Virus record (IMG/VR): IMGVR_UViG_3300033156_000961
Span: 1 to 22,179 of that record
DNA: 22,179 nt
Reading direction: 5' to 3' (one strand)
Origin: a virus
The notes under the pieces: generated by a model
What the model was told of the DNA's origin: nothing
The model's input: the letters and a program-made list of their open reading frames with translations, nothing else
Database searches by the model: none
Made by a program: the position numbers and the translations under genes
Shown here: one piece after another, positions 6,010-17,221 of the stretch
Position numbering within the stretch: the stretch's first letter is position 1
Layout: every line of letters begins with the position of its first letter

Positions 6010-6046
6010 AAAAAAATAAGGGAGATAATTATCATCTCACCTTATT
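6010..6046 (-). terminator. Hairpin plus U-tract terminator behind the major capsid gene
   Basis: On the minus strand AATAAGG pairs with CCTTATT (+ strand 6040-6046 and 6015-6021), extended by GAGAT/ATCTC arms, and is followed directly by a run of seven U (+ strand A6010-A6016). The stem overlaps the capsid stop codon at 6044-6042. This is a bacterial-style hairpin terminator; archaeal polymerase stops at U-tracts, so the stem may protect the capsid mRNA 3' end. Confidence 0.65.
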
Positions 6047-7016
6047 TATGATATATTACACATCCAGCTTTCTCGTTGAGAACATCTGCGCCGAATCTCA
6101 TCGTTACAGAAAGTCCAACTAGGTCATGGATTGGATCATCATACTGTTCTATTGTGATGTCACGCTTCATGCAGATGACACCAAGGTCATTTTTAGATAG
6201 CACTATAGCAGTAACATCTGAGCCTGCAGTTGTATCATCCCAAGTTGGTGATGATGAATCTGTTGCGGTACAGGTGTATGGAGTTAAACCCATGACTTTT
6301 GGAATCTTTCCTTCTGTTAGAGATGTGTTTGTTCCAGCATATGCAACATACGCTAGATTTGAATCGCTGAGTAGATATCCCTCTGCTGTTGGATGTGTAA
6401 CTAATGTATCTGCAAGATAGTTTTGTTTTTTGACTTTAGAGATACCCAATGCTACATCAGATACTGCAATGTGTGGACCAGCTGGATTAAGAGTGTTCGT
6501 GGTTATTTTATTTGCACCATTTAATATTTTGTTCAAGCACTCTCTGTTTAGAGCATTTTCCATCTTAGCTCCAGCCTTCTTGAGTTCAAGCTCGACTACA
6601 TCGAACAGAGAATCTTCTATTAGCTCATTAGTTATCAGTGGTCTAACTCCCCATTTGTCTATTGTAATATCTTGCTTGGTGTAAGTCTGAATATCTATGT
6701 TTATAGCAGCACCTTCAGCTACTTTTTCTGCATAACTTCCGGTCTCACCCTTGATAAATCGCACTGAGTATGAATCAGCTTTAATTACTGGGAAAATCTC
6801 TCTAAAACACTTGAAGGGTTCAGCACCTTCTATGATTGTTTTGTAGACTTCCTCCTGAACTAATGTTGAATTATTTATTGCATCTTTGTCTGATTGCAAT
6901 AATTTGTGTGTGTTCTCTCCAACAGCTTTCTTGAAGGACTCTTTATTTAGGAGTCTGCTTCTCTCTGCATTTCCTGCAAAGCCATATTCTAATAGTTTAG
7001 AAAGTTTGTGAGTCAT
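6042..7016 (-). CDS. Major capsid protein, HK97 fold (324 aa)
   Basis: The N-terminal ~40 residues are helical and charged (delta-domain-like). They are followed by an N-arm and E-loop region around residues 70-125 (R-E-I-F-P-V-I-K-A-D-S-Y, then G-S-Y-A-E-K-V-A-E-G-A-A-I), a spine-helix region (ITNELIEDSLFDVVELELKK) and a P-domain/A-domain end with a G-K-I-P-K-V-M-G-L strand. The terminal VLSKNDLGVICMKRDITIEQ and L-S-V-T-M-R-F-G-A-D-V-L-N-E-K-A segments are typical for this fold. Length is normal for the family. It lies between decoration and connector genes, with a TGTATGTT element 33 nt upstream and a hairpin terminator behind it. No obvious protease cleavage site can be fixed from sequence alone. 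There is no clear Shine-Dalgarno, so a leaderless mRNA is likely. Confidence 0.88.
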   Translation of the reverse strand: MTHKLSKLLEYGFAGNAERSRLLNKESFKKAVGENTHKLLQSDKDAINNSTLVQEEVYKTIIEGAEPFKCFREIFPVIKADSYSVRFIKGETGSYAEKVAEGAAINIDIQTYTKQDITIDKWGVRPLITNELIEDSLFDVVELELKKAGAKMENALNRECLNKILNGANKITTNTLNPAGPHIAVSDVALGISKVKKQNYLADTLVTHPTAEGYLLSDSNLAYVAYAGTNTSLTEGKIPKVMGLTPYTCTATDSSSPTWDDTTAGSDVTAIVLSKNDLGVICMKRDITIEQYDDPIHDLVGLSVTMRFGADVLNEKAGCVIYHK

Positions 7017-7110: not shown

Positions 7111-7512
7111 TTATACCAACAGTACCTTAGCTGTGCCATCTGCAGAGGTCTGCGTTTCCAAAGCTATAGCATATACTCCAGATGGAATAGCTCCAGAGAT
7201 TTTACTCCACTTTCCTTCATCAACTAAATGAAGTCTATCTCCAGCTGTACAGTGGCTAGCTCCAGAGATAATAACTCTGACTATGTTTCCAGGACCATAA
7301 ACAGCTATTGGTTTCCCATCAGTTTGGCTATAGGCAGCTACTCCTACACAGCCTCCTTGCTCAGTGCCTATTCCAGTCCCAGGAGCTTTCACTTTAAAAG
7401 CATCAACTGCATATACCCCCTGACCTTTGTAGATGGTTCCAGAGGCATCATAATCAAATGCTAAAGTACCTTCTTGAATTATGATCGGATCACTTGGGCT
7501 AGTAAAGCTCAT
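7111..7512 (-). CDS. Capsid decoration protein, DUF2190-like (133 aa)
   Basis: Pattern of small capsid-surface proteins of the DUF2190 type: F-D-Y-D-A-S-G-T-I-Y-K-G-Q-G-V-Y-A-V near residue 20, a glycine-rich middle with G-V-A-A-Y, then I-A-V-Y-G-P-G-N-I-V-R-V-I-I-S-G, A-G-D-R-L-H and the final A-I-A-L-E-T-Q-T-S-A-D-G-T-A-K-V-L-L. It is all beta, lacks Trp clusters and enzymatic residues, and stands just upstream of the capsid gene, as decoration genes usually do. AGGA precedes ATG 7512. I consider the class secure and the exact family likely. Confidence 0.75.
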   Translation of the reverse strand: MSFTSPSDPIIIQEGTLAFDYDASGTIYKGQGVYAVDAFKVKAPGTGIGTEQGGCVGVAAYSQTDGKPIAVYGPGNIVRVIISGASHCTAGDRLHLVDEGKWSKISGAIPSGVYAIALETQTSADGTAKVLLV

Positions 7513-7561: not shown

Positions 7562-8257
7562 TTAGTCTTCGGAATAAACTATTCCACCCATTACCCTAAG
7601 AGAGCTTTCGAGTTGTTCTTCTTCCTCATTTTCTTCGATAATAGTCTTTGGTTTAGCTTTGGATTTTGATTTCTCCATTTCTTCTAGCTGTTTTTCTAGT
7701 TCAGAAATTTTATCATCCCTAGCTTTAATAGCTAGTTCCAATTCTTTTTCCTCTGTTTCCTTGGACAATACCTCGATTAATTTATCTATCTTAGCATTAA
7801 GATCTTCTATAGCCTTTTTTGGATATGGATATTTTTCAGGATTAGGATACTTACCACCCTCTAGTTTATTGATTAACTTTGCTAGTTCTTCGATGTCTTT
7901 TTTCGTAACTGTTTCCTTTTTGAGTAGGTCTTTTATCTTTTCTTTAATCACACTGACTAAACCGCCTTTCTCTTCCTCTTCCTGGGTTTCTTCTTCAGTT
8001 TCCTCTTTTTTCTTCTCCTCCTCATCCTCACACTCTTCGTCTTCACATTCTTCCGCTTTGGGCTCTAGAAGATTAGTAACTATTCCTCGAAGACTTTCTA
8101 TCTCTCTCTCTAGTTCACTAATTCTCTCTTGGATATTATCTGTTTTCTCTTCTGTTTTCTCTTCTACCACATCATTCTCGACTAATTCCTCATCTTCAGT
8201 GGCTGCTTCTTCAGTTGCTGTTTCCTCTACCACCTCAATGTTCTCTTCTTCCGGCAT
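7562..8257 (-). CDS. Nested scaffold protein from an internal in-frame start (predicted, 231 aa)
   Basis: Inside the protease fusion, exactly at the junction between protease and acidic coiled-coil tail, an in-frame ATG at 8257-8255 (MPEEENIEVVEE) is preceded by AAAGGTAAT, a usable ribosome site, and 27 nt upstream by an exact TGTATGTT element (8284-8291) like those of other late genes. A separate scaffold would thus be produced in excess over the protease, as lambda does with Nu3 inside gene C. The product is all acidic linker and heptad-like coil with many Glu and Lys and no Trp. This is a prediction from signals, not shown. Confidence 0.5.
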   Translation of the reverse strand: MPEEENIEVVEETATEEAATEDEELVENDVVEEKTEEKTDNIQERISELEREIESLRGIVTNLLEPKAEECEDEECEDEEEKKKEETEEETQEEEEKGGLVSVIKEKIKDLLKKETVTKKDIEELAKLINKLEGGKYPNPEKYPYPKKAIEDLNAKIDKLIEVLSKETEEKELELAIKARDDKISELEKQLEEMEKSKSKAKPKTIIEENEEEEQLESSLRVMGGIVYSED

Positions 8258-9226
8258 ATTACCTTTTTCATTATTACATTCACAACATACAGAATTTAAA
8301 TTTAAATCATTATACTTTGATTTAGATATTACTACAAATCCCGATTTTTCATTAACTGGTAACGAACAGATAGATACCTCAAATATATTTATAGCATCAA
8401 GAACTTCTATACATTTTGATTCATCGCATTCCTCGTGAGATAATATAACTTCACAGCCTATTGAAAATCCATTAAATTCTCCATTTAGTATAGATTCCCA
8501 TATTTTATCTGCTATTTTAAGATCTTTTCTGATTTCAGCGACTATAAATAATCCATTATCATCTACCCTTGTTTTTAGATTTCCATAGGATTTGAGAATT
8601 CTTCCTATCTGAATATTCTTATGAACTAACATTAGATTAGAATAATTTGGATCTGATATAAGAGTTTCTAATCCTGTTTTGAGTACAGAAATTGGTATGA
8701 ATTGGTTTTCACTATCCACTACAGCTACAGATGCATATCCAGCTATAATTCTTCTACCATCAGATGCTTTATCTATTATTTCTAAGTTACCGTTTAAATT
8801 GAATGGGATTTTTTTAGACATCTCTACCACTTTGAAATCATTTACAGGAACTAAGTCTAATTCATATAATGGGATGTAGCTAGTATAGCTTCCAGCATTA
8901 TTATAATGGATATGTACATACTTAGCTACATCTTCATAATTACATTTTAAGATATCTGTAAATAATCTGTATAATCTAAAATCAATTGCTTCTTTTAGTT
9001 TGTCAGAAAAATCTTCACCTCTAATGACTATGTCTATATCATTACTAGACTTTCCTTGAGTAGCTAGAGACCCAACTATCATTATCAAGGGTTTTCTTAA
9101 AGATATTGGTTTTATATTCTCTAACACCTTTTCTTTAGATATAGAAATATCACTATGTTTACCACTTGGTGGAGTTGAAGCATAAGCCTCCTCTCCAAGT
9201 TGAGATAATTCTTTTATATCATTCAT
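7562..9226 (-). CDS. Fusion: pol-beta-type nucleotidyltransferase + prohead protease (XkdF/S78-like) + scaffold
   Basis: Numbering from ATG 9226 (554 aa). Residues ~35-130 form a minimal nucleotidyltransferase: G52-S53 (VGSLATQGKSSNDIDIVIRG), D63 and D65 of the D-x-D pair, and a candidate third Asp D124 in Y-E-L-D-L-V-P. Residues ~145-305 are a capsid maturation protease: H202 in L-V-H-K-N, S255 in G-E-F-N-G-F-S-I-G, and an I-F-E-V-S-I-C-S-L-P-V-N segment. The rest is a very acidic linker followed by coiled coils, as in scaffolds that are digested during maturation. The ATG overlaps the TGA of the holin-like gene (ATGA); a TTG nine bases earlier is less likely. A nested start at 8257 may give free scaffold. 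A nucleotidyltransferase joined to a capsid protease is unusual, and its substrate is unknown. Confidence 0.82.
   Translation of the reverse strand: MNDIKELSQLGEEAYASTPPSGKHSDISISKEKVLENIKPISLRKPLIMIVGSLATQGKSSNDIDIVIRGEDFSDKLKEAIDFRLYRLFTDILKCNYEDVAKYVHIHYNNAGSYTSYIPLYELDLVPVNDFKVVEMSKKIPFNLNGNLEIIDKASDGRRIIAGYASVAVVDSENQFIPISVLKTGLETLISDPNYSNLMLVHKNIQIGRILKSYGNLKTRVDDNGLFIVAEIRKDLKIADKIWESILNGEFNGFSIGCEVILSHEECDESKCIEVLDAINIFEVSICSLPVNEKSGFVVISKSKYNDLNLNSVCCECNNEKGNMPEEENIEVVEETATEEAATEDEELVENDVVEEKTEEKTDNIQERISELEREIESLRGIVTNLLEPKAEECEDEECEDEEEKKKEETEEETQEEEEKGGLVSVIKEKIKDLLKKETVTKKDIEELAKLINKLEGGKYPNPEKYPYPKKAIEDLNAKIDKLIEVLSKETEEKELELAIKARDDKISELEKQLEEMEKSKSKAKPKTIIEENEEEEQLESSLRVMGGIVYSED
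8284..8291 (-). promoter_or_regulatory. Late-promoter-like TGTATGTT inside the protease-scaffold gene
   Basis: Exact copy of the late word within coding sequence, 27 nt before the internal ATG 8257 and preceded by AT-rich sequence. It would direct scaffold-only mRNA. A single word inside a gene could also be chance. Confidence 0.4.
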
Positions 9227-9889: not shown

Positions 9890-12800
9890 CTATAGTTTAT
9901 TAAAGAATTTCTTTTTTGATTCCTCTCTATATTTTTCTCTGCCAAATTTCTTAACTTTTGATGCCTTTGTTGGGTAGTTATATCCAATATCAGCGTGTTT
10001 TATACTATCCATTGGTTTTGGATTTTCGATTGCCTTCCAAACTTCCCATCTAGCTGTTTTATCTGGCCTCTTGAGACATTTTATGATAAACCTGCCTTTT
10101 AATATCTTATCATCTTTAGTCTTGTCTGGATAGAAGAAATATTCATGACAATCATCTCTTGCAACTCCTGTTTTTACTTTACCTATATAGAAGCAGGACA
10201 TATATGCCCACTTATATGGATTTGACCCAACATCACCAGGTTCTATCCAGTATGAATATTCAGGCATATCTAGCTTCTCTATAAGTTTTGCTCCTTTTAA
10301 ATCTATAAGTGGTTCTTTTTCTTTACTCTTCTTTGTGATATCAACCTCTTTGGGTTCAGCACTTGGTTTTACTATTGCTAGACTATGTGCTACATTCATA
10401 ATACCACCAGCTGTCTTTCTATGAGCTCCTGTATACATTTTATAATAGTCTTGTATCGTATTATCAGTAAATACCCATTGTATAAGCATTTTTTCTCCTA
10501 CAGAGCATCTCATATCTGTATGAACGGAGTGGCCTTTAATAATATCAGCGAGGGATTTCTTACCTTTATCATAAGCATCCTTTTCTTCTTGTGTTATCCC
10601 TCTAATGTGATGTTGAAACCATATCCTTCCAGATTTTGGATTGATATATAGCTCTTTAGGAAGAGGCTCGTTGTCTTTAGCTATTGAATCATATATATCT
10701 TTGGGGATTTTACCACTTTCTACCCAGTTTTTTATATCATCTTTCTTTATCGATTTATTATTAATAATATTATCTATATTTAATCTTTCAATATCTAATT
10801 CTCTTATTCTAGATGCTAATTTAATAATCTCATTAGTTATCTCTTCTCTCTTTTTTAATAAAGATTTTGTGTCTATATCTAATTTATTTTCTCCTCTAAT
10901 GTGTCTCAATTCTTCTACTGGTATTCTCTTTGGCTCCATTAGAGATAGTTTATTAACCAAAGATACTGTATCTGTTTTATTTTTTTCTGGTATCAATTCC
11001 ATCACTCTTCCAATATAGAAAGAGTATCTTGGAAATTTCTCATTAACTGGATTATCATATCTAAGAAATTCCTCTCCAGCTATCCGTAGTATATCACCAA
11101 TATTAGCTTTAATATTAGTATTGTCTGTCTTACCCAGTACCATCTCATATTGTCCAGTTTTACCTATAGAATCTTTACCTCTATAGAATTTACCATCTGA
11201 TAATATTCCAACTGAGTGATACCAATCCTTTGTTTTCATTGACACTAACGCATCGTAATAGTCCTTATCAATATCAAGACCTATCCAATAATTATAAGTT
11301 CCTTTACTTCCTTTAACTAAATGTTTTTCTAGAACTCTTCCATCATATTCATGATAAATCTTAGCTTTTCCCCAACCATGATTTGTTGGAGCATCATATG
11401 GATGAGATAACAATTTTATCATTACACCCTCTGCTATAAACTTCGGTCTATCTATTTTATGATTTATAATATTATCTATGGCTTTATTTATACTAGATAT
11501 GTTAGATACTATATAGGCATCTGTCTTCTTATTATCGATATTAGTTGTAGTTCTTTCTATCCATATATGTTTAGATGATTTTATCCTTTGTAAATATTCT
11601 AATCTTTCGTGGAGAGGAAATGATCTGATATCTTCTCCATCATAGAATAGACAGTCAAATGCATATACATATGCATAGTCTTTTAATTCTTCTGGTGATA
11701 TCTTCTTTGCATTTAATAATGAGTTAGCTACAGTTCTATGAAGTATTTCTTTTCCATCCTTATCTAGTGCTATGAATTCTCCATCTATAATTGTATTCGG
11801 TGGAAGTAATTCTTTTAATTCTTTAATAATTTCTGGAAGTCTGGATGAAACATCTGGAGATTTTCCTTTTAATAATTCTGGATCTACATATACAAATGGC
11901 TCATCTCCAGACTTACCAAGAGTTATTCTAAGACCATCAGCCTTGATGTCTATAAGTAATTTTTCATTCAGCCATTTAGCATTCCTTAGTTCTTCATCTA
12001 TAGTTTCAAGTTGAAATCTATAGTAAGGTTTTGCTGTAGACCAATATTTCTTTTTAATCTTTGATTTAGTAACTATAATTTCTGATCTCTTTTTATCCCA
12101 ATCCTTTGCTTCATCATATGATTTTGGAGGATAAGATTTCATATACTTTTCAGATTCTTTATAGCATTTCCAATAAGAGGATTTTTTAGCCTTCTCTGGG
12201 TCCTTTCCAGTATATTCTCTATAGAGATTTTCATCAAAAGGTGGTATAATTGTGAAGTATACACTTCTAAGCACATCAACTAATTTAGCAAAGTATCTAT
12301 ATACTAAATCTAAAGTCCAATCTCCCCATTTCTCTCCTTTCTTTAGTTTTGGATAAGCTGAATTTCCTAAATATCTTAAATCTGCTATACATTCTCTCCA
12401 TCTCTCTTTAACATTTTTCATGTCAGAATCGATGCCTTCTCTTTTAAATTCATCTGGATGGAGTTTATTTTCTAATTTGCTTTTTAATGTGATTACAGAA
12501 TCTTCAGTCAATATCTTTCCATTATATTTAGATAATTCATTCTTAATATCTTTGATTTTATTTTCTAGACTTTTTCTAAGATTAGTCAAATATATTCTTT
12601 CTGGTTTTAATCTATCAGCTAGGTCTAATAATTCTTTAAATGTAGCTTTATGGTCATTTGGTTTTCTTTTATCGTATTCACCAACACCAATTATCCAGAT
12701 ACTTTCTTTTATTAAGTCTTGTTCATATTTACCTAGTCTATCAAATTCTGGTATAATAGATATCTTTTTGTTACGATATGATAATCTAATCCCGATTGCT

Positions 12801-13141
12801 GGCTTACCAACCATTGGTGGTATAGCCATAAAATTGAAGTGAACATGATATAAGTTTATTGATTCTGATATATGCTTGAAATTGCCTTTGAGATCGATAT
12901 TATCTAACACACCTTTAGATGATAAAACTGGTACATTTGGATATTTTTTAAGATAGTTCTTGAGATAGTGGAAATGATCCTCATCTGATTGAGTCACTAT
13001 AATATAATCAACTTTTTTGTCATATTTAACTGATGGATCTATCCAAATAGCATGTCCATCTATATCTAGTAATAAACTAAAATGTTTTTTATTAGGTGTA
13101 GTTAGTGAAGCTGATGTTCCTAATGAAATTATTTTAATCAT
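9890..13141 (-). CDS. Fusion: metallo-beta-lactamase fold + ATP-dependent DNA ligase + LigD phosphoesterase-like domain
   Basis: 1083 residues. (1) Residues 1-215: MBL fold (ISLGTSASLTTP; F-S-L-L-L-D-I-D-G). The usual H-x-H-x-D-H is Q51-S-D53-E-D55-H56, and the late T-H is T-N (L-T-N-L), so metal binding is altered. (2) Residues ~385-720: nucleotidyltransferase/OB core of ATP-dependent ligases: K400-A-D-G-L-R (AMP-accepting Lys), D-G-E 453-455, F-D-C-L-F-Y-D-G 495-502, E-G-V-M-I-K 571-576, W-G-K-A-K 590-594. All motifs are intact. (3) Residues ~760-800 coiled coil, then 835-1045: W-F-Q-H-H-I-R-G, H871-S-V-H874-T-D-M-R878 and I-Q-W-V-F, like the H-Y-D-F-R-L-E core of LigD 3'-phosphoesterase, with an insert. 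The ATG overlaps the upstream HIT gene (ATGA). Expected role: sealing or trimming DNA ends. The location inside the head genes is remarkable. Confidence 0.85.
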   Translation of the reverse strand: MIKIISLGTSASLTTPNKKHFSLLLDIDGHAIWIDPSVKYDKKVDYIIVTQSDEDHFHYLKNYLKKYPNVPVLSSKGVLDNIDLKGNFKHISESINLYHVHFNFMAIPPMVGKPAIGIRLSYRNKKISIIPEFDRLGKYEQDLIKESIWIIGVGEYDKRKPNDHKATFKELLDLADRLKPERIYLTNLRKSLENKIKDIKNELSKYNGKILTEDSVITLKSKLENKLHPDEFKREGIDSDMKNVKERWRECIADLRYLGNSAYPKLKKGEKWGDWTLDLVYRYFAKLVDVLRSVYFTIIPPFDENLYREYTGKDPEKAKKSSYWKCYKESEKYMKSYPPKSYDEAKDWDKKRSEIIVTKSKIKKKYWSTAKPYYRFQLETIDEELRNAKWLNEKLLIDIKADGLRITLGKSGDEPFVYVDPELLKGKSPDVSSRLPEIIKELKELLPPNTIIDGEFIALDKDGKEILHRTVANSLLNAKKISPEELKDYAYVYAFDCLFYDGEDIRSFPLHERLEYLQRIKSSKHIWIERTTTNIDNKKTDAYIVSNISSINKAIDNIINHKIDRPKFIAEGVMIKLLSHPYDAPTNHGWGKAKIYHEYDGRVLEKHLVKGSKGTYNYWIGLDIDKDYYDALVSMKTKDWYHSVGILSDGKFYRGKDSIGKTGQYEMVLGKTDNTNIKANIGDILRIAGEEFLRYDNPVNEKFPRYSFYIGRVMELIPEKNKTDTVSLVNKLSLMEPKRIPVEELRHIRGENKLDIDTKSLLKKREEITNEIIKLASRIRELDIERLNIDNIINNKSIKKDDIKNWVESGKIPKDIYDSIAKDNEPLPKELYINPKSGRIWFQHHIRGITQEEKDAYDKGKKSLADIIKGHSVHTDMRCSVGEKMLIQWVFTDNTIQDYYKMYTGAHRKTAGGIMNVAHSLAIVKPSAEPKEVDITKKSKEKEPLIDLKGAKLIEKLDMPEYSYWIEPGDVGSNPYKWAYMSCFYIGKVKTGVARDDCHEYFFYPDKTKDDKILKGRFIIKCLKRPDKTARWEVWKAIENPKPMDSIKHADIGYNYPTKASKVKKFGREKYREESKKKFFNKL

Positions 13142-13461
13142 TTATCATATTTTATTATTCCTTCTATATGAGCATGCCAATGATCTCTAATGGTTCTTCT
13201 TTTTAGTCGAAGAGTTATTCCTCTCCCAAATATCATTTTACTTCTATATAGAATTCTACCCCATGATTCTCTGGATATAGAGGTTACATGCTCATTATAA
13301 ACTACCATTGGAATTTTACAATTAGAGCAATCAACTATAACAAACTCTGATGTTGGAATATCTCTTGGATCTTCTGGCCAATATAATTTTGTGATAATTC
13401 TACCTTTTGAAAATATTTCACACAGTGGGCAACCATCTACTAGAAAAGTATCTGAATTCAT
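13138..13461 (-). CDS. HIT-superfamily (histidine triad) nucleotide hydrolase/transferase-like protein, zinc-binding
   Basis: Start chosen at ATG 13461 (107 aa), four bases after the stop of the preceding ORF; a longer start at 13527 would overlap that ORF by 62 bp. The protein opens with a C-P-L-C pair followed by E-I-F (compare C-x-F-C-K-I of Hint proteins), has C-S-N-C in the middle followed by K-I-P-M-V-V-Y-N-E-H, and ends with D-H-W-H-A-H-I-E-G, which matches the H-x-H-x-H-x-x triad. The two Cys pairs suggest a structural zinc. HIT enzymes act on nucleotide phosphoramidates and AMP adducts; aprataxin removes AMP from failed DNA ligation ends. ATGA overlap with the ligase fusion (13141) makes a functional link likely, but the specific aprataxin role is inference. 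Confidence 0.72.
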   Translation of the reverse strand: MNSDTFLVDGCPLCEIFSKGRIITKLYWPEDPRDIPTSEFVIVDCSNCKIPMVVYNEHVTSISRESWGRILYRSKMIFGRGITLRLKRRTIRDHWHAHIEGIIKYDK

Positions 13462-13465
13462 TTGG

Positions 13466-13675
13466 TTACAACCATTCTCGTCTAAGCGGAACCCAGTGTC
13501 CTGAGCTTGTTGTTCCAGACCAAACATATAGACACGTAGCTATAGCATTACCACCTTCTATTCCAGATGGTTTGAATCCAGTTATGTTTATAACACCATC
13601 TGAAAATGATGCAGAAGATGTAATTCCATCCGCTCTATAAGTTCCTATTATTGTTATTAAACCCCACTCTCCCAA
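13466..13675 (-). CDS. Small beta-rich ORF, TTG start (69 aa), possibly virion protein
   Basis: No ATG is available; the frame would start at TTG 13675 without a clear Shine-Dalgarno, so the start is uncertain. The translated sequence is Gly/Ser/Thr-rich with beta pattern (DGVINITGFKPSGIEGGNAI, then T-C-L-Y-V-W-S-G-T-T-S-S-G-H-W-V-P-L). This resembles single modules of viral surface proteins and argues that the ORF is real. It fills the gap between the 51-residue zinc protein and the HIT gene, with no other gene in this stretch. I do not recognise a family. Confidence 0.45.
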   Translation of the reverse strand: MGEWGLITIIGTYRADGITSSASFSDGVINITGFKPSGIEGGNAIATCLYVWSGTTSSGHWVPLRREWL

Positions 13676-13689
13676 ATAATAATTACATT

Positions 13690-13845
13690 TTAAATACTTC
13701 TAAGTAATTTAATAGTTTTTCCATCTTCTGTCTCTAATAGCAGAAAATCACCATTATTAATCGCAGCATTCCATCTACATCTATGACACTCTTTGTTTCT
13801 GTTTTTACAGATGTTATAGAATGAACAAACCACTTTTCCACTCAT
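13690..13845 (-). CDS. Small Cys-rich zinc-finger-like protein (51 aa)
   Basis: The ATG (13845-13843) overlaps the TGA of the prohead-protease-like gene as ATGA. Four Cys at residues 7, 13, 20 and 23 (C-x5-C-x6-C-x2-C, with C-H-R-C-R-W) suggest one zinc site; the second half is a short strand-turn-helix (GDFLLLETEDGKTIKLLRSI). The translational overlap makes it a likely real gene. A structural or nucleic-acid-binding mini-protein is possible; function is unknown. Confidence 0.6.
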   Translation of the reverse strand: MSGKVVCSFYNICKNRNKECHRCRWNAAINNGDFLLLETEDGKTIKLLRSI

Positions 13846-14330
13846 TTAATCCTCGCATCTGAGCAAGCTGGATATAAAACAATCGCAGCTCCTATGAATA
13901 CTATATTAGTAGCATCCTTTTTATTATCACTAGAATTCCATACATCTTCTGACTTAAGTTCAACAGATAGCCAATTTACTAGTCCAGCATCTATCAATCC
14001 AATTGTATCCTTAGCATTTCTAGTAACTGGAACTATATATAAATCAGCTTTAATTGCTCCATCCTGAAATCTTGGATTTTCCACATATCCTATCCTATCT
14101 AAAGTGTTCCAAGAATGGTCTAAATTGAGATAGTTCTCTTCCCATTTACTAGCTGCATTTTTTAGTTCACTAGAAGTATATCTGATTGGGTAGCTACTTA
14201 AACTATCACTATATTCACCGGGTGTTAATAGTGTAACATCACGATATATCCTAATATCCGTTGATTTGGATATCTCCTTTTTGTTATACTTAAATGGAAC
14301 TAAAGGTGTGTGTAGATGTAAATTATCCAT
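13842..14330 (-). CDS. Prohead protease-like protein (S78 type), follows portal (162 aa)
   Basis: Contains the conserved pattern of HK97-type capsid maturation proteases: H72 in L-N-L-D-H-S-W, a following I-G-Y-V-E-N-P-R-F and G-A-I-K-A-D-L-Y-I strand pair, then I-D-A-G-L-V-N-W-L-S-V-E with S122 at the catalytic position, and a terminal strand I-G-A-A-I-V-L-Y-P-A. The position right after the portal gene (GGGAGTTAG ribosome site inside the portal's last codons) is canonical. A second protease-like domain exists in the nucleotidyltransferase fusion, so one of the two may have changed role. Length is near that of a minimal protease without scaffold. Confidence 0.72.
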   Translation of the reverse strand: MDNLHLHTPLVPFKYNKKEISKSTDIRIYRDVTLLTPGEYSDSLSSYPIRYTSSELKNAASKWEENYLNLDHSWNTLDRIGYVENPRFQDGAIKADLYIVPVTRNAKDTIGLIDAGLVNWLSVELKSEDVWNSSDNKKDATNIVFIGAAIVLYPACSDARIK

Positions 14331-14332
14331 TA

Positions 14333-15523
14333 CTAACTCCCATCTTTTTTCAACGGCGCATAGCCAAACATAGCTCTAATTTCATCAACAGAGAATGGTT
14401 TCTCTTCACCCTCTCTATAACCTCTAAGTAAATTACCTAACCATTTTGCTTTAACAGCTTCATCTGCATCGGTTACCGAATTAAATTTAATATCTACAGT
14501 TCCTTCTTTTTTATTATATTCCTTTAATATAGCATCTATCAATTCATTTTTTGTTTGATTTGCTAGTTTCATTTGAAATGCTCTTATCATCCTTTCATAT
14601 AGTATTTCTTTTACTTTTGCTGTGGCTTCTGTAGATCCTTGTCCTAAACCCAACGCTTCTTCTGGACATAATAGCCCTATTACTGATTGGGTTAAGAAAA
14701 TATTAAAGTATTCTTCTACACCCTGAACTCCTTTTTCATCTATAGTATCTATCTTAACTACACCAGGAACTACAAACTCATTGGTTGATACAATATCTTC
14801 AAACTTCTTTTCGATATCCTCCATTATTTCTCTTGGAGGTATATCATTTTCATTCCCGACTGTGATTACATATTTTGCTGTATGTCTCTGGATTGCATTA
14901 AATATAGCTTCATCTGTTTCTATCTTTCTATCTATAGTATTCTTACTCGGTTCAATTAGTGATATTCCATATGGAGAAGATGGGTTTGGAAAGAATTTTA
15001 TATGAATAATATCTTCTGGTTTTAATACTACATCTCTTACCTTTCCATTTATTATTTGTTGATAAGATTCTATATTTCCATATGGATCTGTATTAATTAC
15101 TATAGTTTTAGGATCTACGGTCTTGAGATCTGTTATTCTTCCAGAGGGTGTTCTAACAATCTCTATGAATGCATCGCCATATACTAGAGCAAAGACAACA
15201 TTATCTAATAATATTGACTGGAAGTTTAATTTATCTAAATATTTTTGTATTAACTTTTTAGCTTCTTCATCTTCAGAGGTAAGATGGTAGCCCACCATAA
15301 CCGTATTCCAAGCAGTGATATTAATACTAGCAAATACTATTCCCTCTCCATTATAGTATTTCCAATAAGTTTCTAAAGTGTTTACATTTCGAGTAGATGT
15401 CTTTGGGGTTCCTGAATATCTTTTTTTGCCTGTATATACAATAGTTTTGTATCTTCCAGATTCATCCTTCCATATAGAGTTTTTTCTTCTTCTAAATAAT
15501 TTAAATGGATTATATAATTTCAT
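14333..15523 (-). CDS. Portal protein (396 aa)
   Basis: HK97-family portal features: a basic N-terminus (NPFKLFRRRK), a wing with F-A-S-I-N-I-T-A-W-N-T, the clip/stem region with N-V-V-F-A-L-V-Y-G-D-A-F-I-E-I, D-P-K-T-I-V-I-N and P-E-D-I-I-H-I-K-F-F-P-N, followed by S-P-Y-G-I-S-L-I-E-P. A long helical C-terminal half carries T-Q-S-V-I-G-L-L-C-P-E-E-A-L-G-L-G-Q-G and E-A-T-A-K-V-K. It forms the dodecameric DNA gate at the capsid vertex and docks the terminase. Length is normal for archaeal and bacterial tailed viruses. It stands between Alba/terminase and the protease gene. The start at 15523 has only a weak ribosome site. Confidence 0.88.
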   Translation of the reverse strand: MKLYNPFKLFRRRKNSIWKDESGRYKTIVYTGKKRYSGTPKTSTRNVNTLETYWKYYNGEGIVFASINITAWNTVMVGYHLTSEDEEAKKLIQKYLDKLNFQSILLDNVVFALVYGDAFIEIVRTPSGRITDLKTVDPKTIVINTDPYGNIESYQQIINGKVRDVVLKPEDIIHIKFFPNPSSPYGISLIEPSKNTIDRKIETDEAIFNAIQRHTAKYVITVGNENDIPPREIMEDIEKKFEDIVSTNEFVVPGVVKIDTIDEKGVQGVEEYFNIFLTQSVIGLLCPEEALGLGQGSTEATAKVKEILYERMIRAFQMKLANQTKNELIDAILKEYNKKEGTVDIKFNSVTDADEAVKAKWLGNLLRGYREGEEKPFSVDEIRAMFGYAPLKKDGS

Positions 15524-15539
15524 AATCTAATTCTCTTTT

Positions 15540-15797
15540 TTATTCTTTTTTCCTTTTTCCGGAAAGAATTATCTCTATTGTTGATACATTTCTCTTCTCA
15601 AATGGCTCACTTCCAACTGTGATAGTATACTTCGGATCTTCAAGATAATCTCGTATTAGAATAGCTAGAATATCTATAGCTCTTTTTATATTATTGCCTC
15701 TAGCTACTATTTTGATATCTTGGTCTTTCCGAAGGGAGTAGAAGCAAGCTGAGATATATCTAGATATATCCTTATTTCCTATATAGATTTCTTCCAT
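15540..15797 (-). CDS. alba: Alba-family DNA/RNA-binding chromatin protein, virus-encoded
   Basis: An 85-residue protein that matches archaeal Alba from end to end: I-Y-I-G-N-K-D-I-S-R-Y-I-S-A (compare the V-L-I-G-K-K-P-V-M-N-Y-V of Sulfolobus Alba), the I-K-I-V-A-R-G-N-N-I-K-R-A-I-D strand-helix with the R-G-x-x-I-x-x-A-[VI]-D signature, and the beta-hairpin end N-V-S-T-I-E-I. A strong ribosome site GGGAGGTAA precedes ATG 15797. It is packed between the terminase and portal genes (gaps of 2 and 16 bases), an unexpected place for a nucleoid protein. It may coat viral DNA before or during packaging, displace host Alba, or act on viral RNA. The classical acetylation Lys region is replaced by G-N-K-D. 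Confidence 0.88.
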   Translation of the reverse strand: MEEIYIGNKDISRYISACFYSLRKDQDIKIVARGNNIKRAIDILAILIRDYLEDPKYTITVGSEPFEKRNVSTIEIILSGKRKKE

Positions 15798-15799
15798 AT

Positions 15800-17221
15800 T
15801 TACCTCCCTATTTTTCTGATTCTATATTTCTCTTTGTTAACATTCCTAGTTGGGGTTGTTATCTTAGTGTGAATTAAACTAGGAACTTCATTCCAATTTA
15901 TCTCTCTCTCTTTTTCAGAAAGATGAGAGATTTGGATAGCAAATGAAAGGGAATCTATTGTATCATCGTGAGCTCCTCTTGGGAACACTTTTAGTTCCTC
16001 AATCCAATCATCTAATTCAGGATTCATAAATATCCTATTGGTCTCAAAGAGTACCGATAATCTCTGAACTCTTGACATTCTATCATTAGCTATAGAGGTT
16101 TTTATTGGAACAAGTGGTAATGTGCTTATTTCCATGAGTTGATCTGTTATTATCTTCTGTTGAGCCGATGATTCTATTCCTATTCTAATTGGATTCCACT
16201 TTCCAGCGTAAGATTGAATTAATTCAAATTGTCTAAACAATGATGTTTTGGTCCGAAGACCATCTACAACATATATACATCCATTAGCAACTAATATTAC
16301 AGTTATGCAGAAATAATCAGAATCATCTCCAGCTGAAGCAAAATCAACTCCTATGTATGATTCATAAGGAGGGATTGGGATTCTATAATTCTCAATTGAA
16401 TTTTGTAACCATTCACCTCTTATGGGTGAATTCTTATCCATTATTATATTATTTTGATATTGAAGCTCAAAGCTTATTGATCCGATACTTCTTTCTATAG
16501 CTTTTAATTTTTCATATGAGTATCTTTCAGGCCACAGAACTATTTTCTTTTCTCTATCTATGATTGCTTGATATCTCTTAGTTGTAAAACTGGGATCTCT
16601 AGAAAGATAATCATATATATCCCTTTCATTCCATCTAGTTCCTATAGTTATTATTTTTCCTTCTGGTTCTAGCATAGGAACTAGAGTTTGGTTATACCAT
16701 CTTATTAATTCTCTTCTTCTATGTTCTGTTCTAGAATTTCTTTGATCTGTAATATCATCTAAAACTATGATATCATAATGCCCTCCAACCATGGAGGAGG
16801 TGATACCCAATACTGTAACTGTTGGCTCTTTATGAGCAAACCCAGATTTGCCAGCTCTTCTAACTTTTAAAGCTGACCTCGTCCATACACCAGAATATCC
16901 TCTCTGGTCACCAAATAATTCTATTAATTTTTGATTCTCTTCTAGATGATGTTTAATAAAACTCATCATCTCATCAGCCTTATCTTGGCTGATAGTCACT
17001 ATCAATATCCTAATATCAGGATCTCTTATAATTCTCCAAATTATATAAGCTCCAACAAGACTGGTTTTACCATGTGATCTTGGAGCTTGAAGGCAAACGA
17101 ATTGGTGTTTCTCAAATAATTCTAACCATTCCCTATGGAAATTTTTACACTCTAATCCTAATACATCAGTAGTGAAAGCTATAGGATCAAGCGAATATTT
17201 TAATAATTCAAGTTCTGCCAT
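15800..17221 (-). CDS. terL: Terminase large subunit (ATPase + nuclease), 473 aa
   Basis: ATPase: Walker A A46-P-R-S-H-G-K-T53; Walker B I-I-V-L-D-D 151-156; coupling motif I-G-T-R-W 193-197. C-terminal RNase H-like nuclease: D293 in G-V-D-F-A-S, E350 in I-G-I-E-S-S, and D419-D420 in H-D-D-T-I-D-S-L. All expected acidic residues are present, so both motor and cutting activity should work. The protein has normal length and ends in a basic tail (RNVNKEKYRIRKIGR). It translocates DNA into proheads through the portal encoded downstream. The start at 17221 has no strong ribosome site but has late-type elements 35-50 nt upstream. Confidence 0.93.
   Translation of the reverse strand: MAELELLKYSLDPIAFTTDVLGLECKNFHREWLELFEKHQFVCLQAPRSHGKTSLVGAYIIWRIIRDPDIRILIVTISQDKADEMMSFIKHHLEENQKLIELFGDQRGYSGVWTRSALKVRRAGKSGFAHKEPTVTVLGITSSMVGGHYDIIVLDDITDQRNSRTEHRRRELIRWYNQTLVPMLEPEGKIITIGTRWNERDIYDYLSRDPSFTTKRYQAIIDREKKIVLWPERYSYEKLKAIERSIGSISFELQYQNNIIMDKNSPIRGEWLQNSIENYRIPIPPYESYIGVDFASAGDDSDYFCITVILVANGCIYVVDGLRTKTSLFRQFELIQSYAGKWNPIRIGIESSAQQKIITDQLMEISTLPLVPIKTSIANDRMSRVQRLSVLFETNRIFMNPELDDWIEELKVFPRGAHDDTIDSLSFAIQISHLSEKEREINWNEVPSLIHTKITTPTRNVNKEKYRIRKIGR

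Follow-up and report, generated by a model that had tools for sequence, protein, structure and literature searches.

Many phages encode cytoplasmic ATP-dependent ligases. Phages are also reported to use host LigD for infection (PMC7719229, citing Pitcher 2006). A second precedent is provided by the phage polyvalent proteins (Iyer et al. 2017, PMC5512222), which are large, multidomain, carry a C-terminal assemblin-like peptidase and are thought to be packaged and processed; phage P1 DdrB, for example, is processed before head packaging. That paper confines Pol-beta nucleotidyltransferases (NTases) to the polyvalent proteins of conjugative elements, and the combination of a DNA ligase with a LigD-type 3'-phosphoesterase (PE) does not appear in its available text. 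Head proteases of the HK97/S78 and XkdF types are also known from protease-scaffold fusions, in which a domain with catalytic His and Ser precedes an acidic coiled coil and the capsid gene lies downstream.

A closer parallel is found in ANMV-1, a virus from methane-seep archaea (KP703175.1), and this was the single record in a phage collection matched by the NTase part of our locus alone (3e-11). Its protein AJP62006.1, encoded directly after the portal gene and annotated merely as an ATP-dependent DNA ligase, carries a homologous NTase at the N-terminus of the ligase as well as a LigD-PE-like domain. The ANMV-1 'MutT-like phage hydrolase' (1913-3193 of KP703175.1, our contig L002) is a portal protein (PF06381, 3.2e-22). 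Here we describe a head locus in which, unlike in ANMV-1, the NTase is carried on the protease and not on the ligase. We found no account of the combination of NTase, ligase, PE and head protease in the open-access papers searched, whether on XkdF with ligase and NTase, on ANMV-1 or on the ligases of Methanophagales viruses.

Results

The window, that is, the whole stretch of DNA analysed, is a 22,179-base fragment of a record from an uncultured head-tailed virus, with its head genes all on the minus strand. The gene order runs from the terminase large subunit (15800-17221; phrog_38, 1.4e-88) and portal protein (14333-15523; PF04860, 5.4e-13), through an S78/XkdF-like protease adjoining the portal gene (13842-14330), a multidomain enzyme ORF (9890-13141) and the NTase-protease fusion (7562-9226), to a capsid decoration/cement-like protein (7111-7512; weak PF09956 match, 0.011; homologue in contig L078) and the major capsid protein (6042-7016; PF05065, 2.8e-10). 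The protease beside the portal, the second in the window, was recognised with our own HMM and an alignment with 28 relatives (phrog_976, 0.055), and has its His in LDHSW and its Ser in WLSVEL. Two protease domains also occur within a single protein in L034 and L075.

The initial annotation had proposed a nucleotidyltransferase, a prohead protease and an acidic coiled-coil scaffold in one protein, and all three indeed lie in a single ORF of 554 aa, which runs on the minus strand from an ATG at 9226 to a stop at 7562 and whose ATG overlaps the stop of the preceding ORF (ATGA). A TTG three codons upstream yields the listed 557-aa ORF; subtracting 3 from TTG numbering gives ATG numbering. The NTase-like domain (8816-9133; aa 35-140, TTG numbering) contains GSLATQGKSSNDIDI, an exact G-S-x9-D-x-D signature with G55, D66 and D68, the last two being the D63 and D65 of the annotation in ATG numbering. 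It is followed by an S78/HK97 prohead protease domain (8333-8767; aa 157-301), matched by Peptidase_S78 (PF04586, E 1.3e-12, 48.6 bits against a cut-off of 21) and, under its cut-off, by TIGR01543 (1.1e-11). The His and Ser already visible to the annotation (in LMLVHKN and GFSIG) are invariant in 25 aligned relatives. The C-terminal remainder (7562-8263) is Glu/Lys-rich, acidic and coiled-coil-like, in keeping with the scaffold assignment, and small separate ORFs occupy the equivalent place in L017 and L079. Protease and scaffold resemble the known HK97/S78 and XkdF fusions; the N-terminal NTase is what the window adds to them.

A scan for close relatives with the whole fusion protein as query gave no match. 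The NTase-protease fusion recurs in other viruses (L005, L006/L081, L078, L079 and L083), amounting to four further lineages when L005 is taken with L006. The protein in L078 has the same NTase-protease-scaffold composition and is 48% identical over 490 aa. Those of L079, L083, L005 and L006/L081 are about 280-310 aa where complete, L005 running off its contig, and are closely followed, where this is readable, by a small scaffold-like ORF (in L079, L083 and, for the L006 contig, L017). Between L081 and L083, the NTase has a dN of 0.05 and a dS of 1.15 (dN/dS about 0.05), and the protease part, with a dN of 0.06 and a dS over 1, is under purifying selection as strong as that on the NTase. Because of this recurrence and purifying selection, we dropped chance or an assembly artefact as the source of the fusion. 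The annotation had also allowed that the domain might be missing from relatives and the fusion accidental; the NTase family is instead present in 60 of 64 related contigs.

Scanning for the pattern and iterating profiles brought together an NTase family of 46 diverse members. In their alignment the signature G and both D residues are invariant (46/46 each) and the second position is G, S or R, which gives the G[GS] and DxD metal-binding motif of the Pol-beta nucleotidyltransferase superfamily. The candidate third Asp fared less well, as its putative column in the sequence alignment is not conserved: the window has E there, 21 of the 46 members have D or E, and 10 have R. A PF01909 search of the window record gave no match whereas 13 of 14 control genomes did, and the family is therefore too divergent for Pfam; a PF01909 match at E 0.017 stays below its cut-off. 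The NTase profile drew 47 matches from the PDB, all of them NTase, Pol beta, TdT or MNT structures, but at E 0.05 or worse. Structure prediction, which had been suggested as a check on the pol-beta fold, gave an AF2 model of the domain (pLDDT 89.4) that recovers the minimal-NTase arrangement, although with modest structural scores: the best matches are minimal NTases (8xeo, Z 5.5; 1no5, 5.4; 8xeh, 5.0), within a range of Z 5.5-4.5, and unrelated MIF folds reach 4.3. Foldseek found no significant match among viral models. Because the profile matches are weak but point in one direction, the AF2 model is confident and its structural neighbours are minimal NTases, we regard the N-terminal domain as a divergent minimal NTase, for which the predicted fold offers good but not conclusive support. 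In size, G[GS]...DxD motif and strand/helix order it resembles minimal nucleotidyltransferases (MNT) such as MntA of HEPN-MNT, but the similarity is weak (Z 5.5 at best) and the viral third carboxylate is not conserved. A short motif of the P-x-SG type precedes the core in distant members, with SG in 24 of 59; it lies at 9115-9175 in the window and, in L004, L005, L021, L042, L073, L088 and others, within the 30 aa preceding the core, and may be a cleavage or binding site.

The initial annotation had placed the fusion in a set of nucleotide-chemistry enzymes together with ligase and HIT genes. Nucleic-acid enzymes are indeed encoded nearby, the ligase among them; the HIT gene falls out of the set. 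The ORF concerned (13138-13527), just upstream of the ligase ORF, encodes 129 aa with an HWHAHIE string and CxxC pairs. It matched no profile, and searches of Pfam, NCBIfam and the PDB brought up nothing of the HIT family, leaving only the string; we dropped the HIT reading. No relatives of the ORF were found in the fetched loci. The ORF at 9890-13141, by contrast with the fusion that holds the NTase, carries the rest of the enzyme set. Its ATP-dependent DNA ligase adenylation domain (11360-11977; PF01068, 4.8e-20) has an intact motif I (KADG), and the adenylating Lys is kept in nearly all other ligases of the collection. In L041 (9779-11086) there is a second ligase-like domain, which lacks the adenylating lysine motif. 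The PE-like domain (10055-10627) belongs to a family whose profile matches the LigD PE structure 3p4h in two colinear halves (3.6e-4), and whose invariant H, H, D and R are the catalytic set of LigD phosphoesterases. LigD_N matches 14 of 32 members (best 2.8e-7), the window PE alone having no Pfam match. By these profile and residue matches, we assign the family as LigD-type 3'-phosphoesterases. Between the ligase domain and the N-terminal part of the ORF lies 'domX' (12071-12466), a conserved helical domain of 130 aa (AF2 pLDDT 89.3) that is 38-57% identical in eight other contigs, where most of the enzymes flanking it have diverged much further. It takes varying positions within polyproteins. 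Nothing in PHROG matched it below E 0.05, and comparison with the PDB gave neither a clear match nor a known family.

The remaining domain of this ORF has a metallo-beta-lactamase (MBL) fold (12545-13132; weak PF12706 match, own HMM, motif check). The HxHxDH motif, present in 14 of 19 family members, is lost in L005, L006 and the window, which has QSDEDH. This degeneracy in the window clade speaks against a role of the enzymes in DNA-end healing, and it suits a different reading of the protease-fused clade, in which the NTase, its catalysis reduced, would serve as a structural adaptor helping to load or orient the protease, a relic of an ancestral NTase-ligase-protease polyprotein. An R at the third acid position of the NTase in G003/L005/L006 and L079 favours the same reading. 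We consider it quite unlikely, given that the G, D and D of the NTase stay invariant throughout the family, fused members included, and given its dN/dS of about 0.05.

To census these loci, we took profiles built from seeds for NTase, MBL, ligase, PE, domX, proteases, portal, terminase and capsid and ran them against 3,905 ORFs. Among 64 distinct contigs, mostly fragments, and with counts taken on the very ORFs used to iterate the profiles, NTase is found in 60, ligase in 58, PE in 62 and a head protease in 48. The 46 contigs recruited through PE alone give a similar picture (NTase in 42, ligase in 43), and the four of them without NTase are all short or edge-cut loci. Names of metagenome-assembled genomes hint at archaeal hosts and one myxobacterial host for the relatives, as a pointer rather than proof. 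The annotation had treated the NTase as a partner of protease or portal, but its usual neighbour is a DNA ligase or LigD-type phosphoesterase: of 59 domains directly after an NTase, 51 are of these two kinds (ligase 43, PE 8) and 6 are proteases.

This neighbourhood also bears on the main rival to a DNA-end healing set, which casts the NTase as an MNT-like enzyme that AMPylates proteins or modifies RNA ends. Such an enzyme would travel with the genome to act in counter-defence or host takeover, and would share with the ligase only its co-packaging in a polyvalent protein. The top structural matches of the NTase are MNT antitoxins and minimal NTases, its third acid is variable, and Iyer et al. 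propose such a role for the minimal NTases of polyvalent proteins (PMC5512222). On the other hand, the NTase stands nearly always immediately before ligase or PE, a far tighter association than a random mix of effectors would give. MntA pairs with HEPN, whereas the viral NTase is fused to ligase, PE or protease, and no HEPN partner was noticed in general domain scans. We judge the effector reading unlikely, although it is the strongest competitor to end healing.

In 13 contigs, NTase, ligase, PE and head protease share a single ORF, forming polyproteins of 840-2050 aa, such as that of L010 (1179 aa, with XkdF at the end) and that of L088 (2052 aa). Multidomain, with a peptidase and in head gene context, these 13 resemble polyvalent proteins in their make-up. 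The polyprotein of L047 (6919-12603, 1894 aa) also includes a Dam-type adenine methyltransferase region (aa 964-1144). The six protease-only fusions group beside ligase-linked members in the NTase tree, and the support there for the NTase-protease group having arisen once is moderate (85/79). The pairing looks like a derived rearrangement, a direction of change that we infer, as the tree is unrooted. Because of the census, the next-domain counts, the gene positions and this tree, we favour reading the window as the remains of a polyprotein that broke up, its enzyme set split over two ORFs, with an NTase that probably stayed with, or moved to, the protease.

A small protein of 81-85 aa, whose gene in the window (15540-15797) lies upstream of that for the portal, is placed elsewhere in relatives, between NTase-protease and scaffold in L017 (13727-13978) and L083 (3031-3276); its moved position is a further sign of reshuffling.

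The enzymes lie between the portal and capsid genes in all 12 loci that hold both, and are repeatedly fused in the same ORF with head proteases of three subtypes. A simpler account would make them ordinary cytoplasmic replication or repair enzymes of a late operon, fused to the protease for expression only and never entering the virion, and the commonness of phage-encoded cytoplasmic ATP-dependent ligases speaks for it (compare PMC7824862). Set against the fixed portal-capsid position and the repeated protease fusions, this account appears improbable, the least probable of the readings considered here. Domain content, fusions, gene position and purifying selection were all read directly from these loci.

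Discussion

The best explanation, in our view, is a widespread head-module system composed of a minimal NTase, an ATP-dependent ligase and a LigD-type 3'-phosphoesterase, often with an MBL enzyme. We give about an even chance to its being a Ku-less, LigD-like module for healing and joining DNA ends that is assembled in the prohead together with the head protease. Its ligase and phosphoesterase, with LigD_N and NHEJ-ligase profile matches, are shared with bacterial LigD. The viral module differs in lying in a head region, in having a minimal Pol-beta-type NTase in place of the primase-type polymerase, and in its additional MBL, domX and protease domains. Ku was found in none of 39 virus records, many of them fragmentary, with a positive B. 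subtilis control, and standard Ku-LigD NHEJ was dropped for this reason. General Pfam scans of the window and related proteins gave no match to a primase-type polymerase. Counting against end healing, the NTase is minimal, at about 110 aa, lacks the fingers of a Pol-beta polymerase and shows no conservation of the third carboxylate.

We infer the virion location, packaging, cleavage, delivery, substrate and chemistry of the module as follows. The protease-scaffold part would carry the NTase into the prohead, an entry supported by gene position, repeated head-protease fusion and the attached scaffold, and one that the enzyme-protease polyproteins of relatives seem to fit. At maturation the head protease would cut the parts loose, and the freed enzymes would remain beside the packaged DNA or accompany it into the cell. 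Once inside, they would process 3' ends by trimming and filling, and sealing of nicks or ends by the ligase would repair or circularise the incoming linear genome. The window lineage would differ in that its NTase rides on protease and scaffold rather than on the ligase.

More broadly, and with somewhat less than even expectation, we propose that many archaeal and bacterial tailed viruses carry an in-capsid, Ku-independent end healing and joining machine (NTase, ligase, 3'-phosphoesterase and MBL), which would arise joined to the head protease in a polyprotein, be freed at maturation and serve at entry for genome repair or circularisation. The window would then represent a stage at which the polyprotein has broken up and the NTase has been kept on the protease.

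About 60 related contigs in which an NTase stands beside a DNA ligase and a DNA-end-cleaning domain suggest a DNA-end repair kit built inside the capsid. If the enzymes are in the particle, these viruses bring their own end-joining kit rather than relying on that of the host, in contrast to mycobacteriophages Omega and Corndog, which borrow host LigD. Such a kit would explain the ligase within the head module of ANMV-1-like viruses, would point to an entry-repair step that can be tested in viruses of uncultured archaea, and would offer a source of LigD-like enzymes that seemingly work without Ku.
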